A stretch of 64,000 nt of DNA from IMG/VR virus record IMGVR_UViG_3300023278_002686, positions 56,270 through 120,269 of that record; one strand, 5' to 3'. Source of the stretch: a virus. The translations under genes were made by a program, and so were the position numbers. How positions within the stretch are numbered: position 1 is the first letter of the stretch; each line of letters begins with the position of its first letter. Below, piece after piece: positions 18,871 to 56,301 of the stretch. Under the pieces are notes generated by a model, which was not told where the DNA came from, did no database searches, and saw only the letters and a program-made list of their open reading frames with translations.

Positions 18871-19596
18871 ACTAATATAAATATTGATGATAGACATATT
18901 AATGAAATTTTATCAGAAGTAGGATATCCAGTATTAACTTTAGAAGATATTGAAATAAGTGTAGATCAACTTAAAGAAATAGTAATTATTCCAGTCTTAA
19001 GAGAATTTTATTCGTGGTTTCCTATTACTACTTTTAATGAATATTCAGTTACATCTACTTTTGCAATAGATTTTCCTGAGACTAATATATTTGGAATATT
19101 AGACGCCCGAATTAATACTAATTCATTAGGTGGAGGAGCAGTCACTTCTAATCCATTTATTAATGAACAATTTGCATATAATAGAATAAGAAAACAACGA
19201 TATGGAACTCGATATGATTATAATTTAGAAATAGCTGACATAATGGTGAGAGCACAGCGAGAGTCAGAACTTAATTCTATTATAGGAAAACGAATTGATG
19301 TGTCTATAATGAATAGACAGGTGACTGGTTATACGAATGTAGTAGGTAGATTACTTATAGAATGGGCTCATTGGGATGAAAATTTTGAAAACATTCAATA
19401 TACTAAACAAGATGAAGTAATCAAACTTTGTAAAGCTAGATTATTAAGAGTAATGGCTATGATTAGAGGTCAACAAAATAGTGATACTCCAGTTCAATTT
19501 GACGCCGCTTTATTCTTAGATAGAGCAAAAGAACTTGAAGAAGAAGTAAAAGAAAAATGGAAAGACTACTCAAAAGTAGTTGTTCGAAGAATGTAA
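18868..19596 (+). CDS. putative virion (neck-region) protein
   Basis: 242 aa. The product starts with a helical domain (DDRHINEILSEVGYPVLTLED) and continues with mixed strands and a C-terminal helix (LFLDRAKELEEEVKEKW). The layout resembles connector/neck proteins of myoviruses, but no specific motif identifies it. Position at the head of the virion gene block and a following terminator support a structural role. Confidence 0.45.
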   Translation: MTNINIDDRHINEILSEVGYPVLTLEDIEISVDQLKEIVIIPVLREFYSWFPITTFNEYSVTSTFAIDFPETNIFGILDARINTNSLGGGAVTSNPFINEQFAYNRIRKQRYGTRYDYNLEIADIMVRAQRESELNSIIGKRIDVSIMNRQVTGYTNVVGRLLIEWAHWDENFENIQYTKQDEVIKLCKARLLRVMAMIRGQQNSDTPVQFDAALFLDRAKELEEEVKEKWKDYSKVVVRRM

Positions 19597-19604
19597 AAGT
19601 TTTT

Positions 19605-19635
19605 TTGACATTTTCTTTATTTCATATATTATATT
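19605..19635 (+). promoter_or_regulatory. promoter for the 19.64-kb small RNA
   Basis: TTGACA at 19605-19610 is followed by an AT-rich TATTAT/TATATT element at about 19627-19635 (spacing 16-19). Transcription would start near 19640, just before the hairpin. The -10 position is ambiguous. Confidence 0.5.
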
Positions 19636-19639
19636 AATA

Positions 19640-19699
19640 TATTCAATGCGTTGGTATCGGTCTAGACCCTCCAAATCTTCCATACCAACGCTTTTTTTT
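19640..19699 (+). ncRNA. candidate small RNA with anti-ribosome-site loop and intrinsic terminator
   Basis: A perfect 10-bp stem GCGTTGGTAT (19648-19657) / ATACCAACGC (19682-19691) is followed by eight T. The 24-nt loop contains GACCCTCCAAA, complementary to TTTGGAGGG, the long ribosome site used by the very next gene (19757-19766) and by several others in this window. The loop also holds the palindrome GGTCTAGACC. With its own TTGACA promoter it can be made as an RNA of about 60 nt. It could equally be just a terminator with a chance loop, so the sRNA role is inference. Confidence 0.55.
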
Positions 19700-19716
19700 A
19701 ATTTTTTTAAAAAGTT

Positions 19717-19746
19717 TTGATGTTTTAGCAAACATTTTATATATAT
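19717..19746 (+). promoter_or_regulatory. putative promoter of the 19777 gene
   Basis: TTGATG (19717-19722) and a TATATA-rich -10 at about 19740-19745 (17-nt spacing), followed by the extended ribosome site TTTTGGAGGGC before ATG 19777. Confidence 0.4.
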
Positions 19747-19776
19747 TATATATAAGTTAGTTTTGGAGGGCTAAAT

Positions 19777-20463
19777 ATGGCAAGTATAAAATATGATCAA
19801 AAGTTTAAAATGATCGAAGCATATTGTAATATTATGTTAAATAATCAATTAAATTCTTTAATTATCTACGGTGATGTAGGTATAGGAAAAACCTTTACAG
19901 TAAGGAAATCTCTAAAAGATAAGGCAATTTATTATTCAGGTGGAGTAAAAGGATCAGAAGAATTAGCAAGAATTCTCTATAATAATAGAGAAGGAAAAAC
20001 ATTAGTTCTAGATGATTTTGACTCTTGTATGAAAACTAAAGAAATGAAAAATATCTTAAAGACTGCTCTACAAGATGATCATACAAGAATAATTACTTAT
20101 ATGAACTACCGAGTAAATCATAAATTACCTAAAAAAGAACAAATTCCAGAACAATTTAAATTTACTTCAAGTATTATTTTTGTCTCAAATTCAAAACGAA
20201 TTGATCCAGCTCTAAGATCTCGTTCTATGTTAATAGAAATAAGACTTTCTAAAAATGATATGCTACAAAGAATAAAAGATTGTTTTAAAACTTTTATGCC
20301 TAAAATTCCTATGCATTTTAAAGAAGAAGTTTGGAAGTTTATATGGGAAAATAGAGCTAAAATTAAAACAATTGATTTTAGACAATTTAAATTCTCAATC
20401 GCAACTCGACTAAAAGAAAATGAACATTGGAAAGATTGGGTATTATGTAATCTTAATTTTTAG
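19777..20463 (+). CDS. AAA+ family ATPase
   Basis: 228 aa. Walker A is YGDVGIGKT (about residues 31-39), Walker B TLVLDDFDS, and sensor-1-like SSIIFVSNSKRIDPALRSRSMLIEI. Length fits small phage AAA proteins of unknown function. It has its own promoter and a long GGAGGG ribosome site that the upstream small RNA could pair with. DNA- or protein-remodelling during replication or packaging is possible but not shown. Confidence 0.75.
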   Translation: MASIKYDQKFKMIEAYCNIMLNNQLNSLIIYGDVGIGKTFTVRKSLKDKAIYYSGGVKGSEELARILYNNREGKTLVLDDFDSCMKTKEMKNILKTALQDDHTRIITYMNYRVNHKLPKKEQIPEQFKFTSSIIFVSNSKRIDPALRSRSMLIEIRLSKNDMLQRIKDCFKTFMPKIPMHFKEEVWKFIWENRAKIKTIDFRQFKFSIATRLKENEHWKDWVLCNLNF

Positions 20464-20474
20464 AGGAGTTTAAT

Positions 20475-20738
20475 ATGAAGTGTAAGTTATCCGTTTGTAA
20501 TAATTGTTGTCATCATTTAAATGATTTAGATTTTAAGTATCATCCTACAATTATATGCATAGTAGATTCAGATTTAAATTTTTGTTTAGGAAGATTTATA
20601 AATTTTCATAAAATAAATAAAGATCGTAATTGTATATATTTTAAATCATATACAGAATTAAAAACACAGAAAAAGCGTATAAAACAAATAATAAAATTAA
20701 GAAAAAGGAGATTAAAATGCAAAAATTGGATAATATGA
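20475..20738 (+). CDS. Cys/His-rich hypothetical protein (87 aa)
   Basis: MKCKLSVCNNCCHHLNDLD has a C-x4-C-x2-CC-HH cluster, followed by C...CLGRF...CIYF and a strongly basic C-terminal helix (KKRIKQIIKLRKRRLK). The pattern resembles an iron-sulfur or zinc site, family unknown. Overlaps the 20717 gene by 22 nt. Confidence 0.45.
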   Translation: MKCKLSVCNNCCHHLNDLDFKYHPTIICIVDSDLNFCLGRFINFHKINKDRNCIYFKSYTELKTQKKRIKQIIKLRKRRLKCKNWII

Positions 20739-21349
20739 CTTGGATGTTCTTAGTATTATTAATTCTTGGTGTTACTTTATTTGGAATACAAAAAGAATAC
20801 AAAATTAAATTAATTAAAGAAAAAAATCAAAAAGAGATAATTACAAAATATATATATCTTAATCGCATTGACTTAAATGATTTAATTAAAAATCTTGTAT
20901 ATTCTCAAAAAGAACGTGTTTTATCTTATTATGATAAATATACTAAGAATAGAACAATAACCGAGCTTATAGTATATAATGCTATAGAAACAAAAATTCC
21001 CATAAATCTTTTCTTTGCTCAATGTTGGCAAGAAAGTAGATTTAAACCTAAAGTTAAAAGTAAATTAAATCGAAATAAATCAAGAGATTATGGGTTATTT
21101 CAACTTAATAGTTCAGTATATAAATATTATAAAATATCATTTTTAATGATTCCAGATAATAATGTAAGAATTGCTTCTAAACACTTACTTACAAATTATA
21201 ACAGATATAAAACTTGGGAAGAAGCCATAGTATCTTATAATTGTGGTAAGAATTATAATGTTCCAAAAAGTACTATGAAATATCTTACTTCTATTCTTAA
21301 TAAAGAAAAAGAAATAAGTGAAGATTTTATTAAGGAATTAAATATATGA
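20717..21349 (+). CDS. membrane-anchored SLT-type lytic transglycosylase
   Basis: 210 aa. A single N-terminal membrane segment (about residues 8-24) is followed by a Lys-rich linker and a lysozyme-like domain: FFAQCWQESRFKPKVKS with catalytic Glu106, SRDYGLFQLN, and AIVSYNCG. These are the E-S-x-F, GLxQ and A-x-Y-N-x-G motifs of soluble lytic transglycosylases. It cleaves peptidoglycan and may act in lysis or in the virion. Next to a very small membrane protein. Confidence 0.75.
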   Translation: MQKLDNMTWMFLVLLILGVTLFGIQKEYKIKLIKEKNQKEIITKYIYLNRIDLNDLIKNLVYSQKERVLSYYDKYTKNRTITELIVYNAIETKIPINLFFAQCWQESRFKPKVKSKLNRNKSRDYGLFQLNSSVYKYYKISFLMIPDNNVRIASKHLLTNYNRYKTWEEAIVSYNCGKNYNVPKSTMKYLTSILNKEKEISEDFIKELNI

Positions 21350-21444
21350 AACTTAGTAAAAAAATAAAAAGTATAATTTATTATATATGTTGTTTTTTAT
21401 CTGGAATTATGTTATATAATATAATACATTATTTCTTCAAATAA
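21346..21444 (+). CDS. small membrane protein (32 aa)
   Basis: ATG overlaps the stop of the transglycosylase (ATGA) and AAGGA lies upstream. MKLSKKIKS is followed by one hydrophobic helix (IIYYICCFLSGIMLYNIIHYF). Position next to a peptidoglycan hydrolase suggests a lysis accessory, but this is a guess. Confidence 0.45.
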   Translation: MKLSKKIKSIIYYICCFLSGIMLYNIIHYFFK

Positions 21445-21459
21445 AACAACTATATACAT

Positions 21460-23494: not shown

Positions 23495-23525
23495 AGTGTA
23501 CTTTCTTCAAAAAATATAGTATAAT
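23495..23525 (+). promoter_or_regulatory. phage promoter AGTGTACTT-N16-TATAAT
   Basis: AGTGTACTT at 23495-23503, 16 nt, TATAAT at 23520-23525. It is one of five sites with the same two boxes and identical spacing. It drives 23557 and the small genes after it; the leader ends in CCTTGGAGGG. Confidence 0.65.
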
Positions 23526-23556
23526 TAATAATATAAGTACCTTGGAGGGTAAATAA

Positions 23557-40601: not shown

Positions 40602-41291
40602 ATGAGTAGAAATGCACAAGCTGTAAAAGTACCTCCAGGAAAAAAAGTACAAATTTTCAATGGAGCTACAAATATATTAAATGGTTTAAATCCCAAACCT
40701 CAAAGTGAATTAGTATTAGCTGAAGAAATTCAATTATCTATATCATCTAATTTCTCTCCAGTAATGGGATCTAATGATATATTTAAAGTAGGAAGTTTAA
40801 TAAGTTCTGCCTTTAATGTAGGAACATTAGGAGCATATAAACAATTTGGATTTCAATCATGGACTGGAACGAATCCTATTTCAACAACATTTACAATTGA
40901 TATTCATCGAGTTTCAAATGCTTATATAGATGTATGGAAACCAGCTCAATTATTAATGAGATTACCACTTCCTGTAGAAGGTGATCATGGAAATTTACAT
41001 GCACCTGGTCCTTCATTCTTAGATGTAATAAATGATACAGCAGGAACAGATATAAAAATAGGTGGTAATAAAATAGTAACTTTTAAAAAACTTAACCTAT
41101 TAATTGGTGAATTCTTATATATGAACTATGTTCTAATAAAAAGAGTTGAACCAACCTTTAGTACTGAAGTTGATGATACTGGATGTCCTGTATTTTGTAA
41201 GTTAGCAGTAGATGTAGATACTGTCTATACTGGAACAGCTAATGTAATAGCTAACATGGAAGTAAAAAATAGTAGGAGAAATTTAAAATGA
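40602..41291 (+). CDS. putative baseplate hub-associated protein (229 aa)
   Basis: Beta-rich (EEIQLSISSNFSPVMGSNDIF; ISTTFTIDIHRVSNAYIDVWKPAQLLMRLPLPV), between the tape measure and the gp53-like gene. It could be a tube-initiator or hub-connector. Overlaps the next gene by 4 nt. Confidence 0.5.
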   Translation: MSRNAQAVKVPPGKKVQIFNGATNILNGLNPKPQSELVLAEEIQLSISSNFSPVMGSNDIFKVGSLISSAFNVGTLGAYKQFGFQSWTGTNPISTTFTIDIHRVSNAYIDVWKPAQLLMRLPLPVEGDHGNLHAPGPSFLDVINDTAGTDIKIGGNKIVTFKKLNLLIGEFLYMNYVLIKRVEPTFSTEVDDTGCPVFCKLAVDVDTVYTGTANVIANMEVKNSRRNLK

Positions 41292-41602
41292 CCTTTACAC
41301 GATACGCAGTAATCCCAGATTCAAGTGATACTGATACAAATAGTAATTATTATCCTGATATAATGCAATTTCCAGTAGAAGATTTTAAGTATTCACAACC
41401 TCCTGTTGAATATACTATGACTGAAATGGATATAGATAGATTTGATTTATTAGTTACTAAATTTTATGGATCTATAGAATATTCTGATATAATATTATGG
41501 CTTAATAATGTAGAATATATACATAGACTTTCATCAGGTGACTCGATGTTACTTCCTTTAAGAAATGATATAGATAACTTTTACATTGAAAATAAGGTAT
41601 AA
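41288..41602 (+). CDS. LysM-like baseplate wedge protein (T4 gp53 / P2 gpX-like)
   Basis: 104 aa. MDIDRFDLLVTKFYGSIEYSDIILWLNNVEYIHRLSSGDSMLLPLRND has the D-x-L...Y-G...W-x-x-x...N...I-x-x-G-x-x-L-x-L-P pattern of LysM-like baseplate proteins. gp53 clamps wedges around the hub. Adjacent to hub and spike genes. Confidence 0.65.
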   Translation: MTFTRYAVIPDSSDTDTNSNYYPDIMQFPVEDFKYSQPPVEYTMTEMDIDRFDLLVTKFYGSIEYSDIILWLNNVEYIHRLSSGDSMLLPLRNDIDNFYIENKV

Positions 41603-43775: not shown

Positions 43776-43806
43776 AATATACACTAAAATCACAAAAAAG
43801 TACACT
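43776..43806 (-). promoter_or_regulatory. phage promoter AGTGTACTT-N16-TATATT (- strand)
   Basis: AGTGTACTT (43806-43798) and TATATT (43781-43776), 16 nt apart, followed by AGGAGGGC. Divergent from the + strand copy at 43831. Confidence 0.65.
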
Positions 43807-43830: not shown

Positions 43831-43861
43831 AGTGTACTTTTTCACGACTATGTATTATAAT
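43831..43861 (+). promoter_or_regulatory. phage promoter AGTGTACTT-N16-TATAAT
   Basis: AGTGTACTT 43831-43839 and TATAAT 43856-43861, 16 nt apart. With the divergent copy it forms an inverted repeat across a T-tract/A-tract spacer, which could bind a dimeric regulator. Leader ends in TTTTTGGAGGG. Confidence 0.65.
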
Positions 43862-43896
43862 TTATATTATATTATATTAAACTTTTTGGAGGGTTT

Positions 43897-44160
43897 ATGA
43901 AAAAATTAAGAATATGGTGGATACCACAAGTACCTGGTAAGCAATTTAATGTAAAAGTAGAAAACTTAAAAGAAGCAAGTTCGTTACTTGATACATTAGC
44001 AAATTATGATAGATTTCAATATGACAATAATATTAAGTCAGATTATTGTAATGCAGGTGGTCTTCAAGAATTTGATGAAGAATTAAATGATTGGACTGAC
44101 TGGTATGATGAAGATAGTGGTATGGATTTTGATGAATATAGAGAGGAGAATTTAATATGA
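43897..44160 (+). CDS. acidic hypothetical protein (87 aa)
   Basis: WWIPQVPGKQFNVKVENLKEASSLLDTLANYDRFQYDNNIKSDYC is a strand-helix start seen in small T4-type early proteins; the C-terminus is very acidic (DWTDWYDEDSGMDFDEYREE). Expressed from the 43831 promoter with a GGAGGG site. Overlaps the next gene by 4 nt. Confidence 0.5.
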   Translation: MKKLRIWWIPQVPGKQFNVKVENLKEASSLLDTLANYDRFQYDNNIKSDYCNAGGLQEFDEELNDWTDWYDEDSGMDFDEYREENLI

Positions 44161-45720: not shown

Positions 45721-45773
45721 AAGATGCTAACAGCAATAAAAAATTGTCTTCAAAACAAAAAATAATGCATCTT
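45721..45773 (+). ncRNA. leader RNA element 1 (CUUGU/AAGA-N6-CAGCAA motif, permuted form)
   Basis: AAGATGC (45721-45727) pairs with GCATCTT (45767-45773). The 5' arm runs into TAACAGCAATAAAAAA, then a small TTGT/ACAA hairpin closes the loop; GTT follows the 3' arm. The core AAGA-N6-CAGCAA and CTTGT is shared with element 2 and with both tRNA insertions, but here the arms are joined on the opposite side. It starts at the predicted transcription start. Confidence 0.65.
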
Positions 45774-45778
45774 GTTCT

Positions 45779-45808
45779 TTGACAAATATTAGAGACGGAA
45801 TATATAAA
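45779..45808 (+). promoter_or_regulatory. second TTGACA promoter in the tRNA leader
   Basis: TTGACA 45779-45784 with TATATA/TATAAA at 45801-45808 (spacing 16-18). It would start transcription at or just inside leader element 2, repeating the promoter-then-element order of the first site. Confidence 0.5.
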
Positions 45809-45869
45809 AAGACACTAACAGCAAAATAAAAAACATTTGAATTTTAATCAAAACCGTTTTATGTGTCTT
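45809..45869 (+). ncRNA. leader RNA element 2 (same motif, permuted form)
   Basis: AAGACAC (45809-45815) pairs with GTGTCTT (45863-45869). Relative to element 1, two pairs change on both sides (T-A to C-G and G-C to A-T), i.e. covariation. The 5' arm continues TAACAGCAAAATAAAAAAC; an inner TTTGA/TCAAA hairpin closes the loop; GTT follows the 3' arm. Followed 12 nt later by the first tRNA. Confidence 0.65.
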
Positions 45870-45881
45870 GTTTTTTAAATT

Positions 45882-45999
45882 AGGGGAATAGCTCAAGGGT
45901 AGAGCAACGTAAAAAACTGAATCTTGTATGAAGATTTGCACAGCAACAAAAAAAAGCATTGTAAGCCGTAGGTTGTGAGTTCGAATCTCACTTCCCCTA
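45882..45999 (+). tRNA. tRNA-Thr(UGU) interrupted by a 46-nt insertion in the anticodon stem
   Basis: Acceptor AGGGGAA/TTCCCCT, D-stem GCTC/GAGC, T-arm GTGAG-TTCGAAT-CTCAC, discriminator A. As encoded, the anticodon arm does not fold. Removing 45910-45955 joins ACG to GC and gives stem ACGGC/GCCGT with loop ATTGTAA, i.e. U33, anticodon TGT and A37: a perfect 72-nt tRNA. No CCA is encoded. The exact restoration of five stem pairs argues that the insertion is removed or was gained recently. Confidence 0.8.
45910..45955 (+). other. 46-nt intron-like insertion between tRNA positions 29 and 30
   Basis: Core GAATCTT-GTATG-AAGATTT hairpin (7 pairs), then GCA, CAGCAAC and eight A. CTG before and CAG after the hairpin can also pair. 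Much too short for a group I intron, and no bulge-helix-bulge is evident at the junctions. Shares its core with 46041-46079 and with both leader elements. Confidence 0.7.
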
Positions 46000-46007
46000 T
46001 TTTCATG

Positions 46008-46119
46008 AGAGATATAGCTCAGTTGGTAGAGCAATTGGATAAACTGAATCTTGTAAAAGATTATAGCAGCAACTAAAAACATGGCCAATGGGTCGTTGGT
46101 TCGAATCCGACTATCTCTC
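46008..46119 (+). tRNA. tRNA(CAU) (Met or Ile2) interrupted by a 39-nt insertion in the anticodon loop
   Basis: Acceptor AGAGATA/TATCTCT, D-arm GCTC/GAGC, anticodon stem ATTGG/CCAAT (perfect), variable GGGTC, T-arm GTTGG-TTCGAAT-CCGAC. The loop has 46 nt instead of 7. Removing 46041-46079 leaves ATCATGG with U33 and anticodon CAT. G37 is unusual for CAU tRNAs. G-1 and C73 are also present (46007/46119), a tRNA-His-like trait, so identity is uncertain. Confidence 0.7.
46041..46079 (+). other. 39-nt intron-like insertion between tRNA positions 33 and 34
   Basis: AAACTG-AATCTT-GTAA-AAGATT-ATAG-CAGCAAC-TAAAAA: same order and spacing as the 46-nt insertion, with a GNRA-type GTAA loop. The insertion point differs by four positions from that in the Thr tRNA and neither matches the usual 37/38 intron site. 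Confidence 0.7.
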
Positions 46120-52075: not shown

Positions 52076-52106
52076 AGTGTACTTTTCTAAGGTTTTGGTG
52101 TATATT
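52076..52106 (+). promoter_or_regulatory. phage promoter AGTGTACTT-N16-TATATT
   Basis: AGTGTACTT 52076-52084, 16 nt, TATATT 52101-52106. Leader ends in CTTTTGGAGGG. Preceded by a T-tract/A-tract as at the other copies. Confidence 0.65.
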
Positions 52107-52139
52107 ATAAATATAAGAAAACTTTTGGAGGGTTGGATT

Positions 52140-52856
52140 ATGGAAAAAATTAAAACTAATTTTGAAGAATTATGTAAAGAAAACTCAGAATTTGCATGTT
52201 ATGTTGATAATTGTTGGGAAGAATTTGTATGCGACCGAAGAGATGAACTTGAAGAATTAGCTATCCAAGATAGTATTGATCAAGGATTTGATGAAGACGA
52301 ATCTCATAGTATGGTTTCAGATATGGATTTATCTGATTTGATGGATTATGTTGATGAAGCAAATCTTACACAAGAATTTATTGATGATTGGAAAGAATTT
52401 CATCAAGAAACAACAACAACAATGGCGATAATAACAACAGAAAATGAAGAATGGTATACAGAAGAATCAAATATTTCTACAGCAACGCTTGGGGATATGA
52501 TAGACGCTGATTGGGGATATGATGATTGTGGATTAGAAGAAGATGGAGAAAATGAAAACGGTGAAATGTTGTTTACGAGCGATCTTGACTTTGACGGAAA
52601 ACTAACAACCGAAGAATTAAAAGATATAGAAACAGGTTGGTTCAAAGTTTCATACTGGGATGGAAATAACTGGAAAAAAGACATATTTGAATACTATACT
52701 ACAGAAGAAATGATAATTGAAAGTGATACTGAAAAAGAACCCGAACCAAAATGGAATTTTTGTTATAAAATAACAAGAGCAAATGGTGATATAATGGAAG
52801 CAACACAAAGTAATTGTTCAGGCAGTCTATCACCTTATTATGATGTAGAACAATAG
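52140..52856 (+). CDS. acidic hypothetical protein (238 aa)
   Basis: ATG 52140 follows the GGAGGG site; the in-frame part upstream is leader. NFEELCKENSEFACYVDNCWEEFVCDRRDELEELAIQDSIDQGFDEDESH and DMDLSDLMDYVDEAN are very acidic helices, recalling anti-restriction or DNA-mimic proteins (ArdA-like) in charge only. The message carries a hammerhead ribozyme directly after the stop codon. Confidence 0.5.
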   Translation: MEKIKTNFEELCKENSEFACYVDNCWEEFVCDRRDELEELAIQDSIDQGFDEDESHSMVSDMDLSDLMDYVDEANLTQEFIDDWKEFHQETTTTMAIITTENEEWYTEESNISTATLGDMIDADWGYDDCGLEEDGENENGEMLFTSDLDFDGKLTTEELKDIETGWFKVSYWDGNNWKKDIFEYYTTEEMIIESDTEKEPEPKWNFCYKITRANGDIMEATQSNCSGSLSPYYDVEQ

Positions 52857-52857
52857 C

Positions 52858-52910
52858 TCACTCTGATGAGTCGTTGAAAATTACGACGAAACGCCTTCGG
52901 GCGTCAGTGA
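52858..52910 (+). ncRNA. hammerhead ribozyme, type I
   Basis: Stem I TCACT (52858-52862)/AGTGA (52906-52910); core CTGATGA (52863-52869); stem II GTCGT/ACGAC with 8-nt loop; core GAAA (52888-52891); stem III ACGCC/GGCGT with TTCG loop; cleavage after C52905. Every conserved core base is present. It lies between the stop of the 52140 gene and the TTTTGGAGG site of the 52930 gene, so self-cleavage would separate the two messages. Confidence 0.92.
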
Positions 52911-52929
52911 AATTTTGGAGGATTAGATT

Positions 52930-53511: not shown

Positions 53512-53560
53512 TAAAAGTCTATGTAAAAAAGTTAAAACATATTACCGGGAGGGTCTTAAT

Positions 53561-55974: not shown

Positions 55975-56005
55975 AGTGTACTTCCTCTAGAAAATGGTGT
56001 ATAAT
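55975..56005 (+). promoter_or_regulatory. phage promoter AGTGTACTT-N16-TATAAT
   Basis: AGTGTACTT 55975-55983, 16 nt, TATAAT 56000-56005. An upstream TACACTTTTTTT / AAAAAAGAGTGTA inverted repeat covers it. Leader ends in CCTTGGAGGG. Confidence 0.65.
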
Positions 56006-56301
56006 TATAATATAAACAAATACCTTGGAGGGTTGTATATGAAAATAAGTGAAATGATTAAAAATCTAACAAAAATCAAAAAAGAACATGGAAATTTAAA
56101 TCTAGTATATTCTATAGATGATGAGGGGAATGAGTTCAAACAAATATGTTTTACTCCTACTATAGGACATTATGAAGATCGTGAATTTTGTCCTATTGAT
56201 AATAAAGAAGATCATGATAAAATAAATAGTTGTTGTGTAAATTAGTATAAGTGATTTAGATTATAATATAAACAAATACTTTGGAGGGTTGTATATGAAA
56301 A
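56004..56301 (+). repeat. duplicated 42-bp leader (56004-56045 and 56260-56301)
   Basis: Both copies read ATTATAATATAAACAAATAC, then C/T, then TTGGAGGGTTGTATATGAAAA, with a single difference. They include the -10 end, the ribosome site and the start codon of the 56039 and 56295 genes. The second copy lacks the AGTGTACTT box but keeps GATTATAATATAA. Confidence 0.85.
56039..56245 (+). CDS. small hypothetical protein (68 aa)
   Basis: Start ATG 56039 by GGAGGG; the longer frame is leader. ISEMIKNLTKIKKEHGNLNLVYSIDDEGNEFKQICF: helix then beta hairpin, the fold common to small phage early proteins. Unknown. Confidence 0.5.
   Translation: MKISEMIKNLTKIKKEHGNLNLVYSIDDEGNEFKQICFTPTIGHYEDREFCPIDNKEDHDKINSCCVN

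Follow-up and report, generated by a model that had tools for sequence, protein, structure and literature searches.

A candidate small-RNA gene of a T4-like phage with a hairpin loop complementary to a class of phage ribosome sites

Known RNAs that pair with ribosome sites

The gene for the C4 RNA of phages P1 and P7 directly precedes that of its target, ant. C4 is a short phage RNA with loops complementary to the ribosome-site region of that target (PMC12197685). The OOP RNA of phage lambda, also short, has its own promoter and regulates a phage gene by pairing, and the characterized phage small RNAs reviewed in the same source mostly have single phage genes, or host genes, as their targets (PMC12197685). 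Another group consists of RNAs with C-rich loops, exemplified in Gram-positive bacteria by RNAIII and the Rsa RNAs of S. aureus, LhrC of Listeria, and FsrA of B. subtilis, in which an accessible loop pairs with the G-rich Shine-Dalgarno sequences of several mRNAs and initiation is blocked (PMC3861533, PMC4132741).

The 60-nt candidate RNA described here resembles C4 in being short and phage encoded and in having a loop complementary, over 9 nt, to the ribosome site of the gene downstream (19777). However, C4 has one principal target (ant) and belongs to temperate phages, whereas seven sites match here, and the candidate is a single hairpin with its own promoter and terminator. The Rfam C4 model gave no match at its gathering threshold and none at E values up to 5 for positions 19590 to 19790. 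As in the C-rich-loop RNAs, the loop is C-rich and is predicted to be unpaired. In silico, it is predicted to pair with seven ribosome sites, with −16 to −18 kcal/mol for the best. Those RNAs, in contrast, are host RNAs with a literal UCCC, whereas the phage RNA carries CCCUCC and its loop would target an extended variant of the ribosome site, one that the phage genome itself uses rarely. Literal UCCC is absent from the 60-nt unit, whose loop is GACCCUCCAAA. Because there is neither a C4 model match nor a literal UCCC, we file the candidate under neither group, although its presumed mode of working resembles both. Lambda OOP and P22 sar are comparable as short phage RNAs that regulate a phage gene by pairing, but they are antisense RNAs with single targets, whereas the matches here are short and lie at many loci. 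An ordinary intrinsic terminator shares the GC-rich stem followed by T8 but differs from this unit, whose loop is long and exactly complementary and which has a promoter directly ahead.

The phage genome and its relatives

The window, that is, the whole 64,000-nucleotide stretch that was analyzed and to which positions and gene numbers refer unless the record is named, comprises bases 56,270 to 120,269 of a 155,054-base IMG/VR record. The genome (155 kb; G+C content, 26%) is complete, since the ends of the record form a direct repeat of ~74 bases, and it belongs to a contractile-tailed phage, as seen from matches to a tail sheath and a tape measure protein. Distant relatives of the sheath and of AAA protein 19777 occur in T4-like phages that infect many hosts, and the record is a complete T4-like phage. 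The nearest relatives found in IMG/VR show 48 to 64% identity to the capsid protein; the protein used is probably the major capsid protein, as judged from its length and position rather than from a family match. Phage records contained no nucleotide match, and exact-peptide searches in IMG/VR with proteins 19777 and 18868 and the terminase returned no relatives. The record is a bacterial virus without close known relatives. The phage's ordinary ribosome sites resemble AAGGAG. Saprospirales were considered as the host on the basis of one MAG match and rejected, because the TTGACA and AAGGAG signals of the phage do not fit; the match is probably contamination. Gene calls outside the window were made by a simple script.

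Promoter, hairpin, and terminator

A promoter, a hairpin, and a T8 tract fit within a 95-nt unit on the plus strand (19605 to 19699). A reading made from the sequence only had attributed to this unit its own TTGACA promoter, a perfect 10-bp stem, and an eight-T end; the promoter is present, as are the stem and T tract, at 19648 to 19699. The sigma-70-like promoter (TTGACA-N16-TATTAT, 19605 to 19632) has its −35 hexamer at 19605 to 19610 and its −10 hexamer at 19627 to 19632 and agrees with 11 of 12 consensus positions. Its score was equalled in 11 of 2,000 dinucleotide shuffles of the 51-nt gap after gene 18868. Near-consensus TTGACA promoters of the same class also stand upstream of both tRNA clusters, which encode non-coding RNAs, and a comparable one is found ahead of the ORF-less stretch at record positions 41030 to 41407. 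Transcription would start ~7 nt past the −10 hexamer, yielding a putative 60-nt RNA (19640 to 19699) composed of an 8-nt leader, the hairpin, and a U8 end.

The stem-loop (19648 to 19691) has a perfect 10-bp outer stem with arms GCGTTGGTAT (19648 to 19657) and ATACCAACGC (19682 to 19691). In the 24-nt interior, which includes GACCCTCCAAA at 19665 to 19675, GG/CC and AGA/UCU pairs close a 9-nt apical loop, CCCUCCAAA (CCCTCCAAA in the DNA, 19667 to 19675), the complement of TTTGGAGGG. This loop has an unpaired probability above 0.98 in the fold ensemble and an opening cost of 0.02 kcal/mol. The hairpin folds with −16.9 kcal/mol (z = −5.3; equalled by 0 of 200 shuffles), and its GC-rich stem runs directly into the T8 tract (19692 to 19699), the arrangement of an intrinsic terminator. 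The whole record holds only ~6 GC-rich hairpin-plus-T elements. No other is as strong as this one, and no other intergenic one has a long loop. An Rfam search returned nothing credible for the unit.

Three other readings of the unit were considered and set aside. An attenuator switch was rejected because an antiterminator would not fit into the 8-nt leader before the stem; a coding reading was rejected because the 24-codon frame that starts at ATG 19647 and crosses the hairpin has no Shine-Dalgarno sequence; and an intermolecular dimer formed via the stem or the loop palindrome, conceivable on paper, was not adopted.

Complementarity between the loop and ribosome sites

The loop had been described as the reverse complement of extended ribosome sites preceding 19777, 43897, 52140, 56039, 56295, and 23557. 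All of these sites were found, with contiguous matches of 10 nt at 43897, 52140, and 56295 and of 9 nt at 19777, 23557, and 56039, but the full 11-mer GACCCTCCAAA has no match anywhere. The sites, all on the plus strand, are TTTGGAGGG for the adjacent AAA protein gene 19777 (19762 to 19770), for 43897, of the superinfection-exclusion family (43885 to 43893), for 52140 (52124 to 52132), and for 56295, the best predicted target (56280 to 56288), and TTGGAGGG for 23557 (23542 to 23549) and 56039 (56025 to 56032), where the 9-nt match includes the next T. An additional 9-nt match, GGAGGGTCT, shifted along the loop, lies upstream of 53561 (53548 to 53556).

In the window, TTTGGAGGG has five matches against 0.32 expected; the four on the plus strand (19762, 43885, 52124, and 56280) are all ribosome sites, and the fifth is the loop. 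The shorter TTGGAGGG occurs seven times in the whole record. The six plus-strand copies are all spaced from a start codon as ribosome sites are, and the sole minus-strand copy is the hairpin loop. Contiguous loop matches of at least 9 nt fall on the ribosome sites of seven genes, a count reached by 10 of 5,000 shuffled loops and by 31 of 8,493 GC-matched 24-mers of the genome. A match to the ribosome site of the next gene, 19777, as good as that observed was obtained with 87 of 50,000 shuffles and 36 of 26,380 genome 24-mers. These controls correspond to P values of ~0.002 to 0.004, without correction for the way in which the pattern came to attention. Total duplex energy, a cruder count, showed a weak excess over shuffled loops (reached by 7 of 200 shuffles when counted most strictly), and the case therefore rests on the contiguous, site-specific matches. 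The complementarity of the loop to these ribosome sites is real and beyond chance.

Predicted pairing energies for the six best targets are −16 to −18 kcal/mol, compared with about −10 to −11 kcal/mol for the core of the canonical 16S anti-Shine-Dalgarno sequence. When accessibility was included, the 10 best predicted targets among 260 genes all lay at 76 to 113 kb of the record (P = 3e-6), and the 19777 site, where opening the target would cost 6 kcal/mol, ranked only 14th. The modeled energetics fit an RNA that could outcompete 16S rRNA at GGAGGG-class sites.

A ribosome-site class linked to a promoter class

Counting both strands, 11 of the 15 GGAGGG hexamers sit 9 to 14 bases before a called start, and all 11 fall within 76 to 113 kb of the record. 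Every gene with a AGTGTACTT promoter has a GGAGGG ribosome site (5 of 5; P = ~8e-8, computed with 12 GGAGGG-site genes among 260). The AGTGTACTT boxes precede 23557 (23495 to 23503), 43897 (43831 to 43839), 52140 (52076 to 52084), and 56039 (55975 to 55983) on the plus strand and 43756, with ribosome site TAGGAGGGC, on the minus strand (43798 to 43806). The statement that the extended sites lie mostly behind such promoters is borne out for 23557, 43897, 52140, and 56039 but not for 19777 and 56295, which lack the box. The link between GGAGGG ribosome sites and AGTGTACTT promoters is real and beyond chance.

The boxes stand upstream of TATAAT-like −10 sites and so form a promoter class, which among the relatives examined was seen in this record only; it is possibly like the T4 middle promoters. 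In TTGGAGGG, the TT and the final G around GGAGG do not match the canonical 16S anti-Shine-Dalgarno sequence, and therefore ribosome pairing alone does not account for these flanks. The GGAGGG leaders could also be alike through duplication, not regulation. Gene 43897 (43897 to 44160), one of this class, matches the Pfam GP17 superinfection exclusion family (E = 6.8e-27).

An inserted block in comparison with related phages

The unit forms the left edge of a 1.9-kb plus-strand block (19597 to 21459) between structural genes 18868 and 21460 that also contains AAA gene 19777, open reading frame (ORF) 20475, and SLT transglycosylase gene 20717. The block is absent from this place in relatives; in four of them (G001, G003, G010, and L159), the homologue of 18868 is followed by that of 21460 within at most ~1.1 kb. 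The interval is an insertion hotspot between these conserved homologues, with content that varies by relative. In nine relatives, no comparable hairpin and T tract follows the homologue of the upstream gene, and the hairpin is therefore not an inherited operon terminator; together with the absence of the block, this indicates that it came with the inserted block or arose at its edge. Whole-record scans of relatives for hairpin-plus-T elements or CCCTCC loops found no counterpart. Scans of the collections gave 58 matches to the loop followed by T7 and 23 matches to AGTGTACTT plus TTGGAGGG, all unrelated when inspected. Neither the hairpin nor the promoter/ribosome-site module was thus found in any related phage of the searched collections.

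Proposed role and alternative explanations

The loop is the exact complement of an unusual ribosome site shared by a small set of the phage's own genes, so that the unit may well encode a small RNA by which their expression would be lowered. We propose that host-type (sigma-70) RNA polymerase would start near 19640 and stop at T8, producing a hairpin RNA of ~60 nt. Its open loop, CCCUCCAAA, would pair in trans with the extended Shine-Dalgarno sequence (U)UUGGAGGGU of GGAGGG-class mRNAs, namely, those of 23557, 43897, 52140, 53561, 56039, and 56295 and of the adjacent 19777. Pairing would mask the ribosome site and reduce translation, possibly with added decay by RNase III or RNase E, and the RNA could act as a class-wide off-switch or damper. 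We favor such a class-wide action because the loop is predicted to bind GGAGGG sites far better than a 16S anti-Shine-Dalgarno sequence would, and because ordinary AAGGAG sites would bind the ribosome equally well or better. Computed support comes from the anatomy of the unit, loop accessibility in silico, the excess complementarity, and the coincidence of ribosome-site and promoter classes. The earlier suggestion that a class of messages is silenced is thus partly supported: anatomy, complementarity, and the AGTGTACTT link beyond chance agree with it, and the energetics fit. To the reading as a whole, a phage small-RNA gene whose RNA blocks GGAGGG-class ribosome sites, that of 19777 included, we give slightly less than an even chance.

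The chief alternative, possible but on balance unlikely, is a plain intrinsic terminator or insulator that closes off the structural operon upstream or protects the inserted block from read-through, with the TTGACA promoter and the loop being incidental. Nothing that defines an intrinsic terminator is missing from the hairpin, which is located 51 nt past the stop codon of 18868, and other rare terminators of this phage likewise stand at operon ends, for example, after the capsid gene. Because it marks the left boundary of an inserted block that has a promoter of its own, the arrangement recalls insulated moron genes, and the hairpin may serve as an insulator of the block. However, its loop is 18 nt long, compared with 3 to 12 nt in the other intergenic terminators, and a terminator would leave unexplained both a promoter immediately ahead of the hairpin (the 11-in-2,000 shuffle result) and a loop that complements seven ribosome sites (10 in 5,000).

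It is rather improbable that the RNA is a C4-like local regulator acting mainly on 19777 via TTTGGAGGG, the other matches being secondary. The 9-nt exact complement of the 19777 ribosome site less than 100 nt downstream (87 in 50,000 shuffles), the shared inserted block, and the precedent of the P1/P7 c4 RNA, whose loops block the ant ribosome site (PMC12197685), speak for it. Yet three distant sites fit the loop better (10 nt) and are more accessible, the unit has no Rfam C4 match, and 19777 has its own promoter-like site beyond the terminator, a second, weaker TTGATG-N17-TATATA (19717 to 19745, plus strand; best score there, 9/12). Far less probable still is that the shared element, either TTTGGAGGG or the loop palindrome GGTCTAGACC, works as double-stranded DNA or as a binding site for a protein rather than as an RNA-RNA pairing code. 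GGTCTAGACC is a perfect 10-bp palindrome; as it is present in a single copy in the record, it is not a repeated operator, and every plus-strand TTGGAGGG lies at ribosome-site distance from a start codon, which a DNA-binding site would not require.

The small-RNA reading can be extended, tentatively and with considerable doubt, to a virulent T4-like phage in which a noncanonical extended Shine-Dalgarno sequence (UUUGGAGGGU) and a promoter type of its own mark a gene class, with the 9-nt loop of a 60-nt hairpin serving as the address of a class-wide translational switch. If this were true, one loop would address the ribosome-site variant shared throughout a phage promoter class, a class that contains a superinfection-exclusion homologue (43897), and a lytic phage would have a simple, testable way to switch a message set translationally.

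Other RNA elements in the record

An ORF-less intergenic stretch of 378 bases (record positions 41030 to 41407) has a TTGACA promoter and a terminator hairpin (z = −2.0); it had no Rfam match and is a candidate structured RNA of ~290 nt. The tRNA genes at 45883 to 45999 and 46008 to 46119 carry inserts of ~40 to 46 nt in the anticodon arm, with the shared core AAACTG-[hairpin AATCTT/AAGATT]-NNNNCAGCAAC-A-rich. The same insert occurs in tRNA-like genes of Synechococcus phage B23, Aeromonas phage Ahp1, a 735-kb uncultured phage, and Vibrio schitoviruses, with different hairpins (ATATC/GATAT, CATCC/GGATG, GTAATTTG/CAAATTAC, and ATAGCC/GGTTAT) followed by AGCAA- or TGCAA-type motifs; these genes are annotated as undetermined, pseudo, or suppressor tRNAs or are unannotated. 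The insert has the look of a small conserved tRNA intron not described before. Two TAACAGCAA(N)AAAAAA elements that resemble the inserts and are closed by inverted repeats of 6 to 7 bp (AGATGC/GCATCT and AGACAC/GTGTCT) occupy the interval from the tRNA promoter to the first tRNA (45725 to 45870); for one of them, Rfam gave a weak match to Dictyostelium Class I RNA (E = 0.3).

A hammerhead ribozyme sequence with every core base present (52855 to 52912; UCACU-CUGAUGA-GUCGU..ACGAC-GAAA-CGCC UUCG GGCG-UC/AGUGA) lies in the leader of gene 52930 and matches Rfam Hammerhead_3 with an E value of 0.0024, under the gathering threshold. The ribosome site of this gene, TTTTGGAGGA, is likewise a predicted target of the small RNA.
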